Part shown: piece after piece, positions 4,968 to 23,700 of the stretch
Numbering within the stretch: the stretch's first letter is position 1
How the letters are laid out: the number at the start of each line of letters is the position of its first letter
Assembly: GCA_951812305.1 (NCBI GenBank)
Contig: CATOSB010000008.1
Location: 434,001-498,000, forward strand
Length of the DNA stretch: 64,000 bases
Source of the DNA: an uncultured Paracoccaceae bacterium
GTDB lineage: Bacteria > Pseudomonadota > Alphaproteobacteria > Rhodobacterales > Rhodobacteraceae
Direction of reading: 5' to 3'
Program-made: the position numbers and the translations under genes
The notes under the pieces: model-generated
Told to the model about the DNA's origin: nothing
Database searches by the model: none
What the model saw: only the letters and a program-made list of their open reading frames with translations

Positions 4968-5532
4968 GTTGGCCTCCTTCGCTGCATTGGCATATTAACC
5001 TGAGTTCTGGATAAGCGCTATATCTGGTATTCGACCTGCCTGATTGTTTCCGGCACGGTTATGGGTCCCATTTTAACTTTGGTTTTCCCGAGCATATAGG
5101 CTGCGACACACGAGATGAGGTGTACGAATGCGTTGGCAGGCGATCTGTGTCGAGTGTGTTCCAGTCCCATGCTGGTTTTCAACTTATCGAACAGAGTTTC
5201 GATGATGAACCGCCTTCGCAACAGGATTTTGTTCAGGATTGGCAGGAGATAGTTTTTCATGTTGCGGCGAATGCCGGTGACGAGGTGGAGCCCACGCTGC
5301 CAGAGCCGTTGGAAGAGGGATTTGGAGATATAGCCCTTATCAGCAAATATTTTGCCTTCGAGGCCCGCGATCATGGCTTCAAACGGCTTTCGATCATCGA
5401 CATTACCTGCCGTGATTTTGACGGCCATGATCTCCCCCTTGTTGTTGATGATTAGATGCAGTTTGAAGCCAAAGAACCAGCCCATTGTGCTGCGACCGCG
5501 CTTTGCCAGCCCCTTGAAGACCTTGTTTCGAT

Positions 5533-7133
5533 GTAACTCCCAAGCACCCCCCACGTTTGAGTGTTATTGTCAGTTTTATGGTGAGTCGAATTTGCCATTT
5601 TGCGCGTGTTTTTTTTCTTTCTTGTCTGAATTCTGTGGCGCCGGGTTGATTTCTCTGAATCAGTGGTGGGATGGATCAGGTTGCCGCCCTTGAACAACTT
5701 CTCGCCACGGCTCTGCGTCGGATCGCTGAGCTTGAAGCTGCGTTGGCGAGCATGGCGGAAGAGATCACGGACCTGCGCCGACAGTTGGCCAAGAACAGCA
5801 GCAATAGCAGCAAGCCCCCTTCAAGTGATGGCCTGAAGAAGCCAGCCCCGCGCAGCCTGCGTGGCAAATCCGGAAAGAAAAGTGGCGGCCAAGTTGGCCA
5901 CCGGGGCGACACCCTGCGCCAGACGTCAACACCCGACTTTGTCGAACGGCATGAGGCGACGCATTGCAGCGCCTGTCAGAGCGCCCTGACGGCGGAGATG
6001 GTGAAAGGGATCGAGAAGCGTCAGGTGTTCGACTTGCCTGCGCCACGCCTGGAGGTCACCGAGCATCAGGCGGCGGTTTATTGTTGCGACCATTGTCGAG
6101 CCACGACGACGGCTGGCTTTCCCGATGGCGTGGCCGCGCATGTGCAATATGGCACGCGCATGCGGGCAGTGGCGGTCTATTGCAATGTTCAGCAGCTGAT
6201 ACCCGAGGATCGGGTCTGCCAGCTTATGCGCGACCTGTTTGGGGCCACCAGCTTGTGCGCGGCCAGCGTGACCAACTGGACGCGCGGCGCGGCAAATAAG
6301 ATGGGTGTCGTGGTTGAACACATTCTCGCCCGGCTTGCCGAAGGCGGCGTTCGGCATCTGGACGAGACCGGACTTCGTGTTGCCGGCAAGCTGCACTGGC
6401 TGCACACGATCTGCGATACCGCCTTCACCCATTACCGCATCAGCGCCAAACGCGGTGCTGTTCCAACCTTCCTGACCGGCGGGACGATCATTCATGATCA
6501 CTGGAAACCCTACTACGCCCATATGAGCGGAGTGGACGCCCACGCCCTCTGCGGGGCGCATCACTTGCGCGAACTCAAGGCCATCGAAGAGATCGAAAAA
6601 GAGCCTTGGGCGACGGAGATGAGCGCAGTGCTTCATAGCGCCAATCAGCTCAGATGCGCGGCTCAGGATCAAGGCGAGACCGAACTCCCGGAACTGGTTC
6701 GCCAGGGTATAGTCACCAGATACATGGCGATCCTCGCCAAGGGGCTCGCCTTCCACGAACGCCGGCCCCCGCTGGCCAAAAGCCCCGGCACCCGCGGCCG
6801 AAAAGCCAGGCGGCCAGGCCACAACCTGCTCCTCCGCCTGCGTGACTACCGCGATGACGTTTTGCGATTCATCGCCGACTTCGCGGTCCCATTCACAAAC
6901 AATCAGGCCGAACAGGACCTGCGCATGATGAAGCTGCGCATGAAAATCTCGGGCACCTTCCGCACCCTCGAGGGCGCGCGGGTCTTCGCCGACATCAGGT
7001 CCGTCATCTCGACGGCCAGAAAACACCGGTTCAACATCCTGGAAATCCTGACCCTGTCACCACCTCAGATCATCGCACGGCTCTGACGGAACAAAACCCC
7101 GCAACCCTATCGGACAGGGTGCTTGGGAGTTAC
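5533..7133 (+). mobile_element. IS66-family element of the single-gene (ISBst12-like) type, copy 1
   Basis: 1601 bp. Inverted ends GTAACTCCCAAGCACC match at both sides, and the 8-bp target duplication GTTTCGAT is at 5525-5532 and 7134-7141, as expected for IS66. It carries only a TnpC-type transposase and no tnpA or tnpB. Inserted in the IS982 transposase gene of copy A. Confidence 0.95.
5671..7086 (+). CDS. IS66-family (TnpC-type) transposase, copy 1
   Basis: 471 residues. Order of parts: an N-terminal coiled coil ([19 protein letters not shown]), a low-complexity linker ([10 protein letters not shown]), a zinc-ribbon-like cluster (CSAC and CCDHC), then the DDE core with aspartate in HLDETGLR, aspartate in HDHWKPY and glutamate in [11 protein letters not shown] helix of HCGAHH type ([10 protein letters not shown]) precedes the insertion domain. 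This copy has Arg in the HERRPPL stretch, as do copies 3 and 4; copies 2 and 5 have Gln. The reading frame is intact, so the element may be active. Confidence 0.93.
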   Translation: MDQVAALEQLLATALRRIAELEAALASMAEEITDLRRQLAKNSSNSSKPPSSDGLKKPAPRSLRGKSGKKSGGQVGHRGDTLRQTSTPDFVERHEATHCSACQSALTAEMVKGIEKRQVFDLPAPRLEVTEHQAAVYCCDHCRATTTAGFPDGVAAHVQYGTRMRAVAVYCNVQQLIPEDRVCQLMRDLFGATSLCAASVTNWTRGAANKMGVVVEHILARLAEGGVRHLDETGLRVAGKLHWLHTICDTAFTHYRISAKRGAVPTFLTGGTIIHDHWKPYYAHMSGVDAHALCGAHHLRELKAIEEIEKEPWATEMSAVLHSANQLRCAAQDQGETELPELVRQGIVTRYMAILAKGLAFHERRPPLAKSPGTRGRKARRPGHNLLLRLRDYRDDVLRFIADFAVPFTNNQAEQDLRMMKLRMKISGTFRTLEGARVFADIRSVISTARKHRFNILEILTLSPPQIIARL

Positions 7134-7648
7134 GTTTCGATTAATGCGGGCATTGTGGCAGACCGCGAGCTTAGTGCTGTCGGCAAAATAGACGCCGGTT
7201 TTTTCACCGCTGAAGCAGTGCAGCAGTATGCAAAACGGCACCATTAATCTTGGCATGAGGCTGACAAACCGACCATAGCTCGGGAGGTTGCCAAAGCAGT
7301 CACGGTATTTCTGCTCAACGCCATAAATCCAATAATGTTTGAAGTCCTTGAACGGCGACAAGTGAAACAAGACCATGATGAACAGGCTCTCCCCCAGGGT
7401 CAGCTTGCCGGAGCGAAGCCTCTGACGACCCGAGGGGATCAACCGGTGGCGCTCCCAGTCCTCGTAGGTTTTTGCAAAATCATCGAGACAGACAAAAAGT
7501 GCGGTGTTAGTGATCGACATGAGTGGCGGTCCATATTGTGTCGCTTTTGAACCTTGAATCATGGGGCAACGTACTTGGAAACCCCTCTCACCCCATACTA
7601 ATCACGGGGGCATTCAGGCTGGTCAACACGGGGCAAAAGGTGCGCGCC

Positions 7649-8089
7649 ATGGAGAACAACTTCCCAATCAACGAAGATCTCGCTTATGAGAAGATCCGGG
7701 ACCTCATGTTCGACATGATGGAAGAGGACCCCAACCGTTTCTACGCCCTCACGGATAAGCTCAATGAACTGGCTGCGCTCCCTAAAAGAACCATGACACT
7801 TGTGCTCGATCTGATGGCTGCCACTCCCTTTCAGGTGATCATCCCGAAACACGTACGGAAAAATGACCCTGATACATTCAAAGCGGATCACGAAACCGTT
7901 TCAAATGTTCTATTTCTTGGAGAGTTTGGCGGAATTGCCGTTGAACTGGAGCCAAATGAGGCTTTGAGAGAACCGAGGATCATTTCCATAACAATGGTGG
8001 AAATCCCTCATCGCAACCCTCTGCGAAAAAGGGTCAACGAGTATCGTAAAAAACGAATCAAAAAACTACGAAAAAATTCTGTCGAGTAG
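7649..8089 (+). CDS. IS982 passenger protein of unknown function (only intact copy)
   Basis: 146 residues from ATG 7649, preceded by AAAGG. It runs divergently from the IS982 transposase and lies inside the IS ends in all three copies, so it belongs to the element. I do not recognise the family. The N-terminal half is helical and acidic (MENNFPINEDLAYEKIRDLM, EEDPNRFYALTDKLNELA). The middle is mixed (PFQVIIPKHV, FLGEFGGIAVEL). The tail is strongly basic (RKRVNEYRKKRIKKLRK), which suggests nucleic-acid contact. No membrane segment or signal peptide is visible. A transposition regulator, target-choice factor or unrelated cargo are all possible. Confidence 0.7.
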   Translation: MENNFPINEDLAYEKIRDLMFDMMEEDPNRFYALTDKLNELAALPKRTMTLVLDLMAATPFQVIIPKHVRKNDPDTFKADHETVSNVLFLGEFGGIAVELEPNEALREPRIISITMVEIPHRNPLRKRVNEYRKKRIKKLRKNSVE

Positions 8090-8199
8090 TGCACTGGTGA
8101 CGCCAACGTCTTATCCAGAATCGGGGTATATTAGCACGGCTTGCGCGTCTGACCGACAGGAAATAGATACGCGCGAAATGGCGTGAAAGGGCGTTTGGA

Positions 8200-12735: not shown

Positions 12736-13071
12736 CGGTCGAAGAATCCTTTCCGCGCGCCATAGCAGACGGTTGAACACGCATGAAATGACGATGAACG
12801 CCGCGAATTCACGGGTCAACCCGCCAGTAGCTTGATAAAGTTAACCCCGATTCTGGATAAGACGTTGGCGTCACCAGTGCACTACTCGACAGAATTTTTT
12901 CGTAGTTTTTTGATTCGTTTTTTACGATACTCGTTGACCCTTTTTCGCAGAGGGTTGCGATGAGGGATTTCCACCATTGTTATGGAAATGATCCTCGGTT
13001 CTCTCAAAGCCTCATTTGGCTCCAGTTCAACGGCAATTCCGCCAAACTCTCCAAGAAATAGAACATTTGAA

Positions 13072-14672
13072 GTAACTCCCAAGCACCCCCCACGTTTGAG
13101 TGTTATTGTCAGTTTTATGGTGAGTCGAATTTGCCATTTTGCGCGTGTTTTTTTTCTTTCTTGTCTGAATTCTGTGGCGCCGGGTTGATTTCTCTGAATC
13201 AGTGGTGGGATGGATCAGGTTGCCGCCCTTGAACAACTTCTCGCCACGGCTCTGCGTCGGATCGCTGAGCTTGAAGCTGCGTTGGCGAGCATGGCGGAAG
13301 AGATCACGGACCTGCGCCGACAGTTGGCCAAGAACAGCAGCAATAGCAGCAAGCCCCCTTCAAGTGATGGCCTGAAGAAGCCAGCCCCGCGCAGCCTGCG
13401 TGGCAAATCCGGAAAGAAAAGTGGCGGCCAAGTTGGCCACCGGGGCGACACCCTGCGCCAGACGTCAACACCCGACTTTGTCGAACGGCATGAGGCGACG
13501 CATTGCAGCGCCTGTCAGAGCGCCCTGACGGCGGAGATGGTGAAAGGGATCGAGAAGCGTCAGGTGTTCGACTTGCCTGCGCCACGCCTGGAGGTCACCG
13601 AGCATCAGGCGGCGGTTTATTGTTGCGACCATTGTCGAGCCACGACGACGGCTGGCTTTCCCGATGGCGTGGCCGCGCATGTGCAATATGGCACGCGCAT
13701 GCGGGCAGTGGCGGTCTATTGCAATGTTCAGCAGCTGATACCCGAGGATCGGGTCTGCCAGCTTATGCGCGACCTGTTTGGGGCCACCAGCTTGTGCGCG
13801 GCCAGCGTGACCAACTGGACGCGCGGCGCGGCAAATAAGATGGGTGTCGTGGTTGAACACATTCTCGCCCGGCTTGCCGAAGGCGGCGTTCGGCATCTGG
13901 ACGAGACCGGACTTCGTGTTGCCGGCAAGCTGCACTGGCTGCACACGATCTGCGATACCGCCTTCACCCATTACCGCATCAGCGCCAAACGCGGTGCTGT
14001 TCCAACCTTCCTGACCGGCGGGACGATCATTCATGATCACTGGAAACCCTACTACGCCCATATGAGCGGAGTGGACGCCCACGCCCTCTGCGGGGCGCAT
14101 CACTTGCGCGAACTCAAGGCCATCGAAGAGATCGAAAAAGAGCCTTGGGCGACGGAGATGAGCGCAGTGCTTCATAGCGCCAATCAGCTCAGATGCGCGG
14201 CTCAGGATCAAGGCGAGACCGAACTCCCGGAACTGGTTCGCCAGGGTATAGTCACCAGATACATGGCGATCCTCGCCAAGGGGCTCGCCTTCCACGAACG
14301 CCAGCCCCCGCTGGCCAAAAGCCCCGGCACCCGCGGCCGAAAAGCCAGGCGGCCAGGCCACAACCTGCTCCTCCGCCTGCGTGACTACCGCGATGACGTT
14401 TTGCGATTCATCGCCGACTTCGCGGTCCCATTCACAAACAATCAGGCCGAACAGGACCTGCGCATGATGAAGCTGCGCATGAAAATCTCGGGCACCTTCC
14501 GCACCCTCGAGGGCGCGCGGGTCTTCGCCGACATCAGGTCCGTCATCTCGACGGCCAGAAAACACCGGTTCAACATCCTGGAAATCCTGACCCTGTCACC
14601 ACCTCAGATCATCGCACGGCTCTGACGGAACAAAACCCCGCAACCCTATCGGACAGGGTGCTTGGGAGTTAC
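13072..14672 (+). mobile_element. IS66-family single-gene element, copy 2
   Basis: 1601 bp with GTAACTCCCAAGCACC ends. The 8-bp target duplication CATTTGAA is at 13064-13071 and 14673-14680. Inserted in the passenger gene of IS982 copy B. Confidence 0.95.
13210..14625 (+). CDS. IS66-family (TnpC-type) transposase, copy 2
   Basis: 471 residues, intact and identical to copy 1 except for the HERQPPL variant (Gln for Arg) that it shares with copy 5. All three DDE residues and the zinc-ribbon cysteines are present. The shared variant suggests copies 2 and 5 are closer to each other than to copies 1, 3 and 4. Confidence 0.93.
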   Translation: MDQVAALEQLLATALRRIAELEAALASMAEEITDLRRQLAKNSSNSSKPPSSDGLKKPAPRSLRGKSGKKSGGQVGHRGDTLRQTSTPDFVERHEATHCSACQSALTAEMVKGIEKRQVFDLPAPRLEVTEHQAAVYCCDHCRATTTAGFPDGVAAHVQYGTRMRAVAVYCNVQQLIPEDRVCQLMRDLFGATSLCAASVTNWTRGAANKMGVVVEHILARLAEGGVRHLDETGLRVAGKLHWLHTICDTAFTHYRISAKRGAVPTFLTGGTIIHDHWKPYYAHMSGVDAHALCGAHHLRELKAIEEIEKEPWATEMSAVLHSANQLRCAAQDQGETELPELVRQGIVTRYMAILAKGLAFHERQPPLAKSPGTRGRKARRPGHNLLLRLRDYRDDVLRFIADFAVPFTNNQAEQDLRMMKLRMKISGTFRTLEGARVFADIRSVISTARKHRFNILEILTLSPPQIIARL

Positions 14673-15017
14673 CATTTGAAACGGTTTCGTGATCTGCTTT
14701 GAATGTATCAGGGTCATTTTTCCGTACGTGTTTCGGGATGATCACCTGAAAGGGAGTGGCAGCCATCAGATCGAGCACAAGTGTCATGGTTCTTTTAGGG
14801 AGCGCAGCCAGTTCATTGAGCTTATCCGTGAGGGCGTAGAAACGGTTGGGGTCCTCTTCCATCATGTCGAACATGAGGTCCCGGATCTTCTCATAAGCGA
14901 GATCTTCGTTGATTGGGAAGTTGTTCTCCATGGCGCGCACCTTTTGCCCCGTGTTGACCAGCCTGAATGCCCCCGTGATTAGTATGGGGTGAGAGGGGTT
15001 TCCAAGTACGTTGCCCC

Positions 15018-15953
15018 ATGATTCAAGGTTCAAAAGCGACACAATATGGACCGCCACTCATGTCGATCACTAACACCGCACTTTTTGTCTGTCTCGATGA
15101 TTTTGCAAAAACCTACGAGGACTGGGAGCGCCACCGGTTGATCCCCTCGGGTCGTCAGAGGCTTCGCGCCGGCAAGCTGACCCTGGGGGAGAGCCTGTTC
15201 ATCATGGTCTTGTTTCACTTGTCGCCGTTCAAGGACTTCAAACATTATTGGATTTATGGCGTTGAGCAGAAATACCGTGACTGCTTTGGCAACCTCCCGA
15301 GCTATGGTCGGTTTGTCAGCCTCATGCCAAGATTAATGGTGCCGTTTTGCATACTGCTGCACTGCTTCAGCGGTGAAAAAACCGGCGTCTATTTTGCCGA
15401 CAGCACTAAGCTCGCGGTCTGCCACAATGCCCGCATTAATCGAAACAAGGTCTTCAAGGGGCTGGCAAAGCGCGGTCGCAGCACAATGGGCTGGTTCTTT
15501 GGCTTCAAACTGCATCTAATCATCAACAACAAGGGGGAGATCATGGCCGTCAAAATCACGGCAGGTAATGTCGATGATCGAAAGCCGTTTGAAGCCATGA
15601 TCGCGGGCCTCGAAGGCAAAATATTTGCTGATAAGGGCTATATCTCCAAATCCCTCTTCCAACGGCTCTGGCAGCGTGGGCTCCACCTCGTCACCGGCAT
15701 TCGCCGCAACATGAAAAACTATCTCCTGCCAATCCTGAACAAAATCCTGTTGCGAAGGCGGTTCATCATCGAAACTCTGTTCGATAAGTTGAAAACCAGC
15801 ATGGGACTGGAACACACTCGACACAGATCGCCTGCCAACGCATTCGTACACCTCATCTCGTGTGTCGCAGCCTATATGCTCGGGAAAACCAAAGTTAAAA
15901 TGGGACCCATAACCGTGCCGGAAACAATCAGGCAGGTCGAATACCAGATATAG
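15018..15953 (+). CDS. IS982-family transposase, intact (copy B)
   Basis: 311 residues from ATG 15018; an internal ATG at 15060 (MSITNTAL) is an equally plausible start. Family landmarks: [12 protein letters not shown] with the first catalytic aspartate near residue 130, [14 protein letters not shown] and [26 protein letters not shown] and the glutamate in [13 protein letters not shown]. Ends in SCVAAYMLG as IS982 transposases do. It reads divergently from the passenger gene, with which it shares a short intergenic control region. Confidence 0.93.
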
Positions 15954-16054
15954 CGCTTATCCAGAACTCAGGTTAAAGTTACGTCCAGTTTGGCATTTCG
16001 GGCATTAGCGTTCGCTTTTGGCTTAGGCACAGGTTCTGAGGGAAATTCAACGGT

Positions 16055-20551: not shown

Positions 20552-20624
20552 AGGAACCCCGATTCTGGATAAGACGTTGGCGTCACCAGTGCACTACTCG
20601 ACAGAATTTTTTCGTAGTTTTTTG

Positions 20625-22225
20625 GTAACTCCCAAGCACCCTGTCCGATAGGGTTGCGGGGTTTTGTTCCGTCAGAGCCGTGCGATGATCTGAGGTGGTG
20701 ACAGGGTCAGGATTTCCAGGATGTTGAACCGGTGTTTTCTGGCCGTCGAGATGACGGACCTGATGTCGGCGAAGACCCGCGCGCCCTCGAGGGTGCGGAA
20801 GGTGCCCGAGATTTTCATGCGCAGCTTCATCATGCGCAGGTCCTGTTCGGCCTGATTGTTTGTGAATGGGACCGCGAAGTCGGCGATGAATCGCAAAACG
20901 TCATCGCGGTAGTCACGCAGGCGGAGGAGCAGGTTGTGGCCTGGCCGCCTGGCTTTTCGGCCGCGGGTGCCGGGGCTTTTGGCCAGCGGGGGCCGGCGTT
21001 CGTGGAAGGCGAGCCCCTTGGCGAGGATCGCCATGTATCTGGTGACTATACCCTGGCGAACCAGTTCCGGGAGTTCGGTCTCGCCTTGATCCTGAGCCGC
21101 GCATCTGAGCTGATTGGCGCTATGAAGCACTGCGCTCATCTCCGTCGCCCAAGGCTCTTTTTCGATCTCTTCGATGGCCTTGAGTTCGCGCAAGTGATGC
21201 GCCCCGCAGAGGGCGTGGGCGTCCACTCCGCTCATATGGGCGTAGTAGGGTTTCCAGTGATCATGAATGATCGTCCCGCCGGTCAGGAAGGTTGGAACAG
21301 CACCGCGTTTGGCGCTGATGCGGTAATGGGTGAAGGCGGTATCGCAGATCGTGTGCAGCCAGTGCAGCTTGCCGGCAACACGAAGTCCGGTCTCGTCCAG
21401 ATGCCGAACGCCGCCTTCGGCAAGCCGGGCGAGAATGTGTTCAACCACGACACCCATCTTATTTGCCGCGCCGCGCGTCCAGTTGGTCACGCTGGCCGCG
21501 CACAAGCTGGTGGCCCCAAACAGGTCGCGCATAAGCTGGCAGACCCGATCCTCGGGTATCAGCTGCTGAACATTGCAATAGACCGCCACTGCCCGCATGC
21601 GCGTGCCATATTGCACATGCGCGGCCACGCCATCGGGAAAGCCAGCCGTCGTCGTGGCTCGACAATGGTCGCAACAATAAACCGCCGCCTGATGCTCGGT
21701 GACCTCCAGGCGTGGCGCAGGCAAGTCGAACACCTGACGCTTCTCGATCCCTTTCACCATCTCCGCCGTCAGGGCGCTCTGACAGGCGCTGCAATGCGTC
21801 GCCTCATGCCGTTCGACAAAGTCGGGTGTTGACGTCTGGCGCAGGGTGTCGCCCCGGTGGCCAACTTGGCCGCCACTTTTCTTTCCGGATTTGCCACGCA
21901 GGCTGCGCGGGGCTGGCTTCTTCAGGCCATCACTTGAAGGGGGCTTGCTGCTATTGCTGCTGTTCTTGGCCAACTGTCGGCGCAGGTCCGTGATCTCTTC
22001 CGCCATGCTCGCCAACGCAGCTTCAAGCTCAGCGATCCGACGCAGAGCCGTGGCGAGAAGTTGTTCAAGGGCGGCAACCTGATCCATCCCACCACTGATT
22101 CAGAGAAATCAACCCGGCGCCACAGAATTCAGACAAGAAAGAAAAAAAACACGCGCAAAATGGCAAATTCGACTCACCATAAAACTGACAATAACACTCA
22201 AACGTGGGGGGTGCTTGGGAGTTAC
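20625..22225 (-). mobile_element. IS66-family single-gene element, copy 3
   Basis: 1601 bp, inverted relative to copies 1 and 2. The 8-bp duplication GTTTTTTG is at 20617-20624 and 22226-22233. Inserted near the 3' end of the passenger gene of IS982 copy C. Confidence 0.95.
20672..22087 (-). CDS. IS66-family (TnpC-type) transposase, copy 3
   Basis: 471 residues, intact, with the same domain order and DDE residues as copy 1 and the Arg form of the HERRPPL stretch. Nothing in the frame suggests inactivation. Confidence 0.93.
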   Translation of the reverse strand: MDQVAALEQLLATALRRIAELEAALASMAEEITDLRRQLAKNSSNSSKPPSSDGLKKPAPRSLRGKSGKKSGGQVGHRGDTLRQTSTPDFVERHEATHCSACQSALTAEMVKGIEKRQVFDLPAPRLEVTEHQAAVYCCDHCRATTTAGFPDGVAAHVQYGTRMRAVAVYCNVQQLIPEDRVCQLMRDLFGATSLCAASVTNWTRGAANKMGVVVEHILARLAEGGVRHLDETGLRVAGKLHWLHTICDTAFTHYRISAKRGAVPTFLTGGTIIHDHWKPYYAHMSGVDAHALCGAHHLRELKAIEEIEKEPWATEMSAVLHSANQLRCAAQDQGETELPELVRQGIVTRYMAILAKGLAFHERRPPLAKSPGTRGRKARRPGHNLLLRLRDYRDDVLRFIADFAVPFTNNQAEQDLRMMKLRMKISGTFRTLEGARVFADIRSVISTARKHRFNILEILTLSPPQIIARL

Positions 22226-22729
22226 GTTTTTTGATTCGTTTTTTACGATACTCGTTGACCCTTTTTCGCAGAGGGTTGCGATGAGGGATTTCCACCATTG
22301 TTATGGAAATGATCCTCGGTTCTCTCAAAGCCTCATTTGGCTCCAGTTCAACGGCAATTCCGCCAAACTCTCCAAGAAATAGAACATTTGAAACGGTTTC
22401 GTGATCTGCTTTGAATGTATCAGGGTCATTTTTCCGTACGTGTTTCGGGATGATCACCTGAAAGGGAGTGGCAGCCATCAGATCGAGCACAAGTGTCATG
22501 GTTCTTTTAGGGAGCGCAGCCAGTTCATTGAGCTTATCCGTGAGGGCGTAGAAACGGTTGGGGTCCTCTTCCATCATGTCGAACATGAGGTCCCGGATCT
22601 TCTCATAAGCGAGATCTTCGTTGATTGGGAAGTTGTTCTCCATGGCGCGCACCTTTTGCCCCGTGTTGACCAGCCTGAATGCCCCCGTGATTAGTATGGG
22701 GTGAGAGGGGTTTCCAGGTACGTTGCCCC

Positions 22730-23665
22730 ATGATTCAAGGTTCAAAAGCGACACAATATGGACCGCCACTCATGTCGATCACTAACACCGCACTTTTTGT
22801 CTGTCTCGATGATTTTGCAAAAACCTACGAGGACTGGGAGCGCCACCGGTTGATCCCCTCGGGTCGTCAGAGGCTTCGCTCCGGCAAGCTGACCCTGGGG
22901 GAGAGCCTGTTCATCATGGTCTTGTTTCACTTGTCGCCGTTCAAGGACTTCAAACATTATTGGATTTATGGCGTTGAGCAGAAATACCGTGACTGCTTTG
23001 GCAACCTCCCGAGCTATGGTCGGTTTGTCAGCCTCATGCCAAGATTAATGGTGCCGTTTTGCATACTGCTGCACTGCTTCAGCGGTGAAAAAACCGGCGT
23101 CTATTTTGCCGACAGCACTAAGCTCGCGGTCTGCCACAATGCCCGCATTAATCGAAACAAGGTCTTCAAGGGGCTGGCAAAGCGCGGTCGCAGCACAATG
23201 GGCTGGTTCTTTGGCTTCAAACTGCATCTAATCATCAACAACAAGGGGGAGATCATGGCCGTCAAAATCACGGCAGGTAATGTCGATGATCGAAAGCCGT
23301 TTGAAGCCATGATCGCGGGCCTCGAAGGCAAAATATTTGCTGATAAGGGCTATATCTCCAAATCCCTCTTCCAACGGCTCTGGCAGCGTGGCCTCCACCT
23401 CGTCACCGGCATTCGCCGCAACATGAAAAACTATCTCCTGCCAATCCTGAACAAAATCCTGTTGCGAAGGCGGTTCATCATCGAAACTCTGTTCGATAAG
23501 TTGAAAACCAGCATGGGACTGGAACACACTCGACACAGATCGCCTGCCAACGCATTCGTACACCTCATCTCGTGTGTCGCAGCCTATATGCTCGGGAAAA
23601 CCAAAGTTAAAATGGGACCCATAACCGTGCCGGAAACAATCAGGCAGGTCGAATACCAGATATAG
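22730..23665 (+). CDS. IS982-family transposase, intact (copy C)
   Basis: 311 residues, identical to copy B apart from a Ser for Ala change in RLRSGKLTL. All catalytic landmarks listed for copy B are present. Read-through from this gene could contribute to transcription of soxW, whose ribosome-binding site begins 21 bp past the transposase stop. Confidence 0.93.
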
Positions 23666-23700
23666 CGCTTATCCAGAACTCAGGTTAAAGGAGGAGAAAT

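Follow-up and report, generated by a model that had tools for sequence, protein, structure and literature searches.

A small protein family carried by IS982 and ISAzo13 elements and adjoining cas6 in cyanobacterial type I-D CRISPR-Cas loci

The IS982 elements of the window

The window, that is, the whole stretch of 64,000 nucleotides that was analysed (C8:434001-498000), belongs to a 7.18-Mb genome in 39 contigs from an uncultured Paracoccaceae bacterium, and contains three insertion sequences (IS) of the IS982 family at 4998..8127, 12844..15973 and 20556..23685. An earlier note on this DNA had placed them at these coordinates with ACC ends, and the target duplications of 6-8 bp that it described proved exact; they read ATATTA, TAAAGTTA and TAAAGGA, respectively. 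IS982 elements are usually about 1 kb long and carry one gene, neither of which is obligatory, and they generate target duplications of approximately 6-9 bp. The elements studied here have imperfect terminal repeats that start with ACC, and their transposase is of the IS982 type (DDE_Tnp_1_3, E 1.1e-70 in Pfam for the intact gene of copy 2), being 41-52% identical to proteins annotated as IS982 and to an unannotated gene of Ca. Megaera. They differ from the usual size and gene count in that the unit comprises 1521 bp and two divergent genes separated by 86 bp, one for the transposase and another that will be referred to as the passenger.

Each copy in the window is the 1521-bp unit grown to 3130 bp by an element of the IS66 family. 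In copy 1 (ends ACCTGAGTTCTGGATAAG and ACCCCGATTCTGGATAAG), whose ATATTA duplication was read directly at 4992..4997 and 8128..8133, the insertion splits the transposase gene; the C-terminal part lies at 5018..5532 (minus strand, assigned through the Pfam match of the intact copy-2 gene), and the N-terminal part at 7134..7562 (minus strand), with a likely start, MSITN, about 45 bp inside. The nested IS66 element (5533..7133, plus strand) has 1601 bp, is flanked by the 8-bp sequence GTTTCGAT and carries its own transposase ORF at 5671-7086. A head-to-head intergenic stretch (7563..7648) separates the split gene from the passenger gene (7649..8089, plus strand), which encodes 146 amino acids and is the only intact one among the three copies. 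In copy 2, IS66 interrupts the passenger after approximately codon 86; codons 1-86 are located at 14673..14931 (minus strand), the remainder is found beyond IS66 within 12844-13071, and the transposase gene (15018..15953, plus strand; 311 amino acids) is intact. In copy 3 the insertion is at about codon 141, the last passenger codons are replaced by read-through into IS66 (22226..22643, minus strand), and the transposase gene is again intact (22730..23665, plus strand). A whole passenger is thus present only in copy 1 and a whole transposase only in copies 2 and 3, and of the earlier statement that each of the three elements encloses the two genes, the outline stands and the coding state does not. 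Taken as a whole, the earlier observation is real and sharply bounded, was partly misdescribed, and is partly confirmed; its connections extend further than had then been supposed.

Copies in the genome

The passenger had been described as copied at least three times, which was right as to its being multiplied and greatly understated the number: a search of the genome gives 128 matches when the passenger is the query and 150 with the transposase, almost all of them 98-100% identical. More than 100 match sites were extracted and 96 spans were rebuilt, a few of which are chains of adjacent copies; in 64 of these 96, perfect target duplications of 6-8 bp lie outside both genes, and therefore both genes are enclosed by the true ends of the IS. 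An IS end situated between the two genes, which the earlier note had raised against its own proposal, is not what these spans reveal; the passenger genuinely belongs to the mobile unit, along with which it was multiplied many times. The length of 1521 bp, proposed for the element once IS66 is removed, is exactly that of 56 copies in other parts of the genome that carry no insertion and vary at only 14 positions. Given that the copies are nearly identical, the burst that produced them is recent. The variable sites among the 56 copies comprise three synonymous and two non-synonymous changes in the passenger, and two and four, respectively, in the transposase; the copies are too young for this comparison to be informative, as it rests on five variable codon sites in the passenger.

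Together, IS982, the nested IS66 and other IS insertions account for a massive burst of recent date at about 100 sites of the genome; at least five distinct insertion points of IS66 were found within IS982 copies, as well as 1.2-1.3-kb insertions of other elements. A putative divergent relative of the passenger at C3:114366, with 68% identity, proved to be a copy of IS982 that contains an IS66 insertion.

IS66 is located at passenger codon 141 in 11 elements, 8 of them with distinct or clear duplications, and at codon 86 in three elements, the duplications of which all differ (TAAAGTTA, TGGTTA and TTTTTA). The simplest reading is that these interrupted elements moved as units; repeated insertion of IS66 at one site of IS982 is less likely. 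Since elements with a broken passenger occupy several sites, each with its own duplication, the passenger is, on this reading, dispensable in cis. It could be supplied in trans, given that around ninety whole copies are present in the cell. The idea that the passenger helps transposition, suggested in the earlier note, finds no support as regards an action in cis, in view of the three sites and three duplications of the codon-86 elements, and may be right as regards an action in trans.

The passenger belongs to an unnamed protein family

By sequence comparison, the passenger is a member of an unnamed family of proteins of 110-150 amino acids and not an orphan. The family core can be represented as Y.G[DE].GGI.C ... 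S[IL]T ... Y[QR]..R; the passenger retains the core residues G91, G94, G95, I96, S113, T115, Y132 and R136, and deviates from it with a valine at the usual C98 and a methionine at the usual histidine. One relative with 30% identity was identified within the same taxonomic family, and further ones among plasmid records. A profile built from four sequences (the passenger and three relatives) recovered full-length relatives with E values of 1e-29 to 1e-35. A scan of 85,462 species genomes with a four-member alignment, which misses relatives devoid of its two motifs, brought in 18 more loci, whose products are at most 33% identical to the passenger.

Curated collections are silent about the family, as had been anticipated: nothing usable was obtained for the passenger in Pfam, NCBIfam, PHROGs or PADLOC, and no match was found in PADLOC for the passenger and six relatives, in Pfam for 18 family members, or in PDB by sequence profile for the passenger. 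Annotated phage records contain no relatives of the passenger, and viral scans that used a cyanobacterial alignment and the passenger itself as queries gave none. In the open-access papers that were searched for passenger genes of IS982 or ISAzo13, no description of the passenger gene was found; the family may have been described elsewhere.

Relatives in ISAzo13 elements and other settings

IS elements that carry passenger genes are already known. In rhizobia and other α-proteobacteria, the family rides as a second gene in elements of the ISAzo13 family. In Rhizobium, Microvirga, a Roseinatronobacter MAG and a viral contig, the gene is directly downstream of an ISAzo13-family transposase gene and overlaps it. 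Rhizobium ruizarguesonis has three copies on three plasmids, in unrelated surroundings, and the only stretch common to them is a 1.79-kb segment with both genes; one of these copies is a 1784-bp unit between TAA duplications. This element, from strain TP23, resembles ours in that a relative of the passenger, 29.5% identical to it, lies inside the ends, and differs in having an unrelated transposase; moreover, its passenger relative is on the same strand as the transposase gene, downstream and overlapping, whereas the IS982 passenger is divergent.

The presence of the family within two unrelated IS families would fit a transposition helper that binds the transposase, the transposon end or the target DNA, and raises the efficiency of insertion in trans for every copy. 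In ISAzo13 the start of the gene overlaps the transposase stop, which suggests coupled translation; furthermore, IS982 elements whose transposase is split by IS66 at the same place occupy different sites, and therefore the factors involved probably act in trans. However, the nearest relative of our IS982 element does without a passenger, the elements cut at codon 86 settled at three sites with different duplications, and a helper would leave the CRISPR loci described below unexplained; we consider this role unlikely.

Other relatives were found in various contexts. In Novosphingobium and Sphingobium, relatives lie directly after genes that, on inspection of their sequences, are putatively AbiEi/AbiEii-like (L064 3076-4330 and L066 88-1024). 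Four IMG/VR contigs (L057, L058, L060 and L225) carry relatives, and in three of these contigs the relative and phage tail-like genes are in convergent orientation. Relatives that stand as lone genes occur in Microcystis, Chloroflexota and others.

The family in cyanobacterial type I-D CRISPR-Cas loci

A profile search of 291 cyanobacterial genomes detected the family in 26. Cas10d/Csc3 is present in 20 of these 26 and in 63 of the 265 others (Fisher p 1e-7, shared ancestry ignored). In 17 of the 20 neighbourhoods that were inspected, the family gene adjoins cas6 on the opposite strand, mostly between cas5d and cas6, and in 14 of those 17, cas10d, cas7 and cas5 can be recognised on its other side. 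The family gene and cas6 are arranged head-to-head with a gap of 14-104 bp in 14 of the 17 CRISPR loci. Many type I-D CRISPR-Cas loci of cyanobacteria incorporate this gene. An example is WP_015081719.1 of Anabaena sp. 90, annotated as a hypothetical protein, which shares the family core and the head-to-head layout with the IS982 passenger, and differs from it in having cas6 instead of the transposase gene as neighbour and an extra C-terminal tail. In three Pseudanabaena-like loci (L208, L209 and L210), cas6-cas4-cas1-cas2 adjoin the family gene and cas10d was not recognised; these loci could represent variants of type I-D in which the effector half differs.

As far as a limited search extends, two reviews on type I-D systems (PMC10212523, PMC12669027) mention a WYL or Csa3 regulator and not this gene.

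The association with type I-D loci would also be expected if the protein were a modulator or inhibitor of CRISPR or of another defence system that mobile elements acquired as cargo, for the benefit of the host or of the element. The candidate AbiE-like neighbours in the two sphingomonads and the relatives in viral contigs point in the same direction. However, the Csc3 model, which matched 83 of the 291 cyanobacteria, gave no match in this genome and none in its controls (a search without a positive control), PADLOC gave none either, and in the tree described below the versions from cyanobacteria are in a different clade from those of mobile elements. A role as defence cargo appears improbable to us.

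Origin of the two-gene IS982 element

The nearest relative that could be defined from end to end is located in plasmid NZ_CP104167.1 of Ca. Megaera polyxenophila, and its transposase has 51.6% identity. Its terminal repeats are near-identical to those of our element; in contrast, it has 1002 bp and one gene, as compared with 1521 bp and the extra divergent gene. In the gene table of the plasmid, no gene is entered at this place (L257 2378-3379). Given that the nearest relative is a one-gene element with near-identical ends, the passenger is a late addition to IS982: the element gained approximately 0.5 kb with the passenger between the transposase start and one end, and the resulting 1521-bp unit then reached a copy number of roughly one hundred here. 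A survey of 199 genomes of the same taxonomic family revealed, outside this genome, only IS982 pieces that were weak or broken.

When this genome was searched for an ancestral chromosomal gene with a distant relative as query, only IS982 copies were retrieved. The earlier note had named a wide occurrence of the passenger outside IS982 ends as an argument against its proposal; this applies in part, since distant relatives (~20-33% identity) do exist outside IS982, although in this genome the gene is confined to IS982 copies. In a tree of 41 family members, the passenger is placed on a long branch among the alphaproteobacterial mobile-element versions (support 0.97), and the versions from cyanobacteria and Chloroflexota group in a separate clade. 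From this placement in a sequence tree, the source of the IS982 passenger was probably the alphaproteobacterial pool rather than a CRISPR locus.

A gene that became enclosed by IS982 ends on one occasion, was amplified in a single young burst and has no role of its own would also give near-identical copies, a burst so recent that selection cannot be read from it, and no close relative of the passenger in the 85,462 other species genomes; the elements with a broken passenger spread as well. Nevertheless, the open reading frame and the core residues of the family have been retained, and the family has also been acquired by a second IS family and by CRISPR loci, unlike what would be expected of a random passenger. 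We give little credence to a neutral hitch-hiker.

Predicted structure and possible role

AlphaFold2 models of the passenger and of a Rhizobium relative of 113 amino acids (pLDDT of 80.6 and 84.3, respectively) show a predicted fold that comprises a helix and an SH3-like barrel and ends in a long basic helix at the C-terminus, in agreement with the basic tail noticed earlier; the passenger has extra N-terminal helices. No Foldseek match was obtained below E 0.001. The best one was CcbP of Anabaena (3urg, 2p0p; E 0.01, TM 0.44-0.47 over the predicted core), and the next ones were further small barrels, including Tudor and chromo domains and PsaE. The likeness of the modelled passenger to CcbP is at fold level and unproved, and has no counterpart in Pfam or in PDB sequence profiles. 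CcbP is a calcium-binding protein and not a regulator.

Beyond family membership and layout, which were observed, we infer a function. It is a real possibility, which we put forward tentatively, that this small protein regulates the divergent gene through nucleic-acid binding. It would bind nucleic acid or a partner bound to it, and would damp or time the expression of its divergent neighbour from the intergenic region that the two share; its target would be the transposase in IS982, and the cas6-cas4-cas1-cas2 half-operon in type I-D loci. In IS982 it would then work as a copy-number governor acting in trans. This reading is based on the head-to-head arrangement with the transposase gene (86 bp) and with cas6 (the 14 loci with gaps of 14-104 bp), and on the SH3-like fold class and the basic tail, which suit nucleic-acid binding. 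Against it are the same-strand downstream layout in ISAzo13 and the relatives that are lone genes; the intergenic stretch 7563..7648, in which consensus and repeat scans detected no consensus promoter, terminator, repeat or clear operator; the calcium-binding nature of CcbP, the best fold match; and the hundred or so copies of the element, which would be unexpected under strong self-restraint.

A broader proposal, which seems to us conceivable and rather doubtful, is that this SH3-like family is a control or accessory module shared by IS982, ISAzo13 and type I-D loci and works in the same way in all of them. These results place one family in two unrelated IS families and at a fixed position in type I-D loci, and it is this last setting that makes it interesting; if the proposal is true, a common small protein would tie mobile elements to a defence system. 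The idea lends itself to a pair of tests, one on the gene beside cas6 in a cyanobacterium, and the other on the gene beside the transposase in a transposition assay.

Two further copies of the passenger (C2:1248945-1249382 and C35:26886-27323) lie within open frames of 863 codons, and are possibly in-frame fusions between IS982 and host genes.
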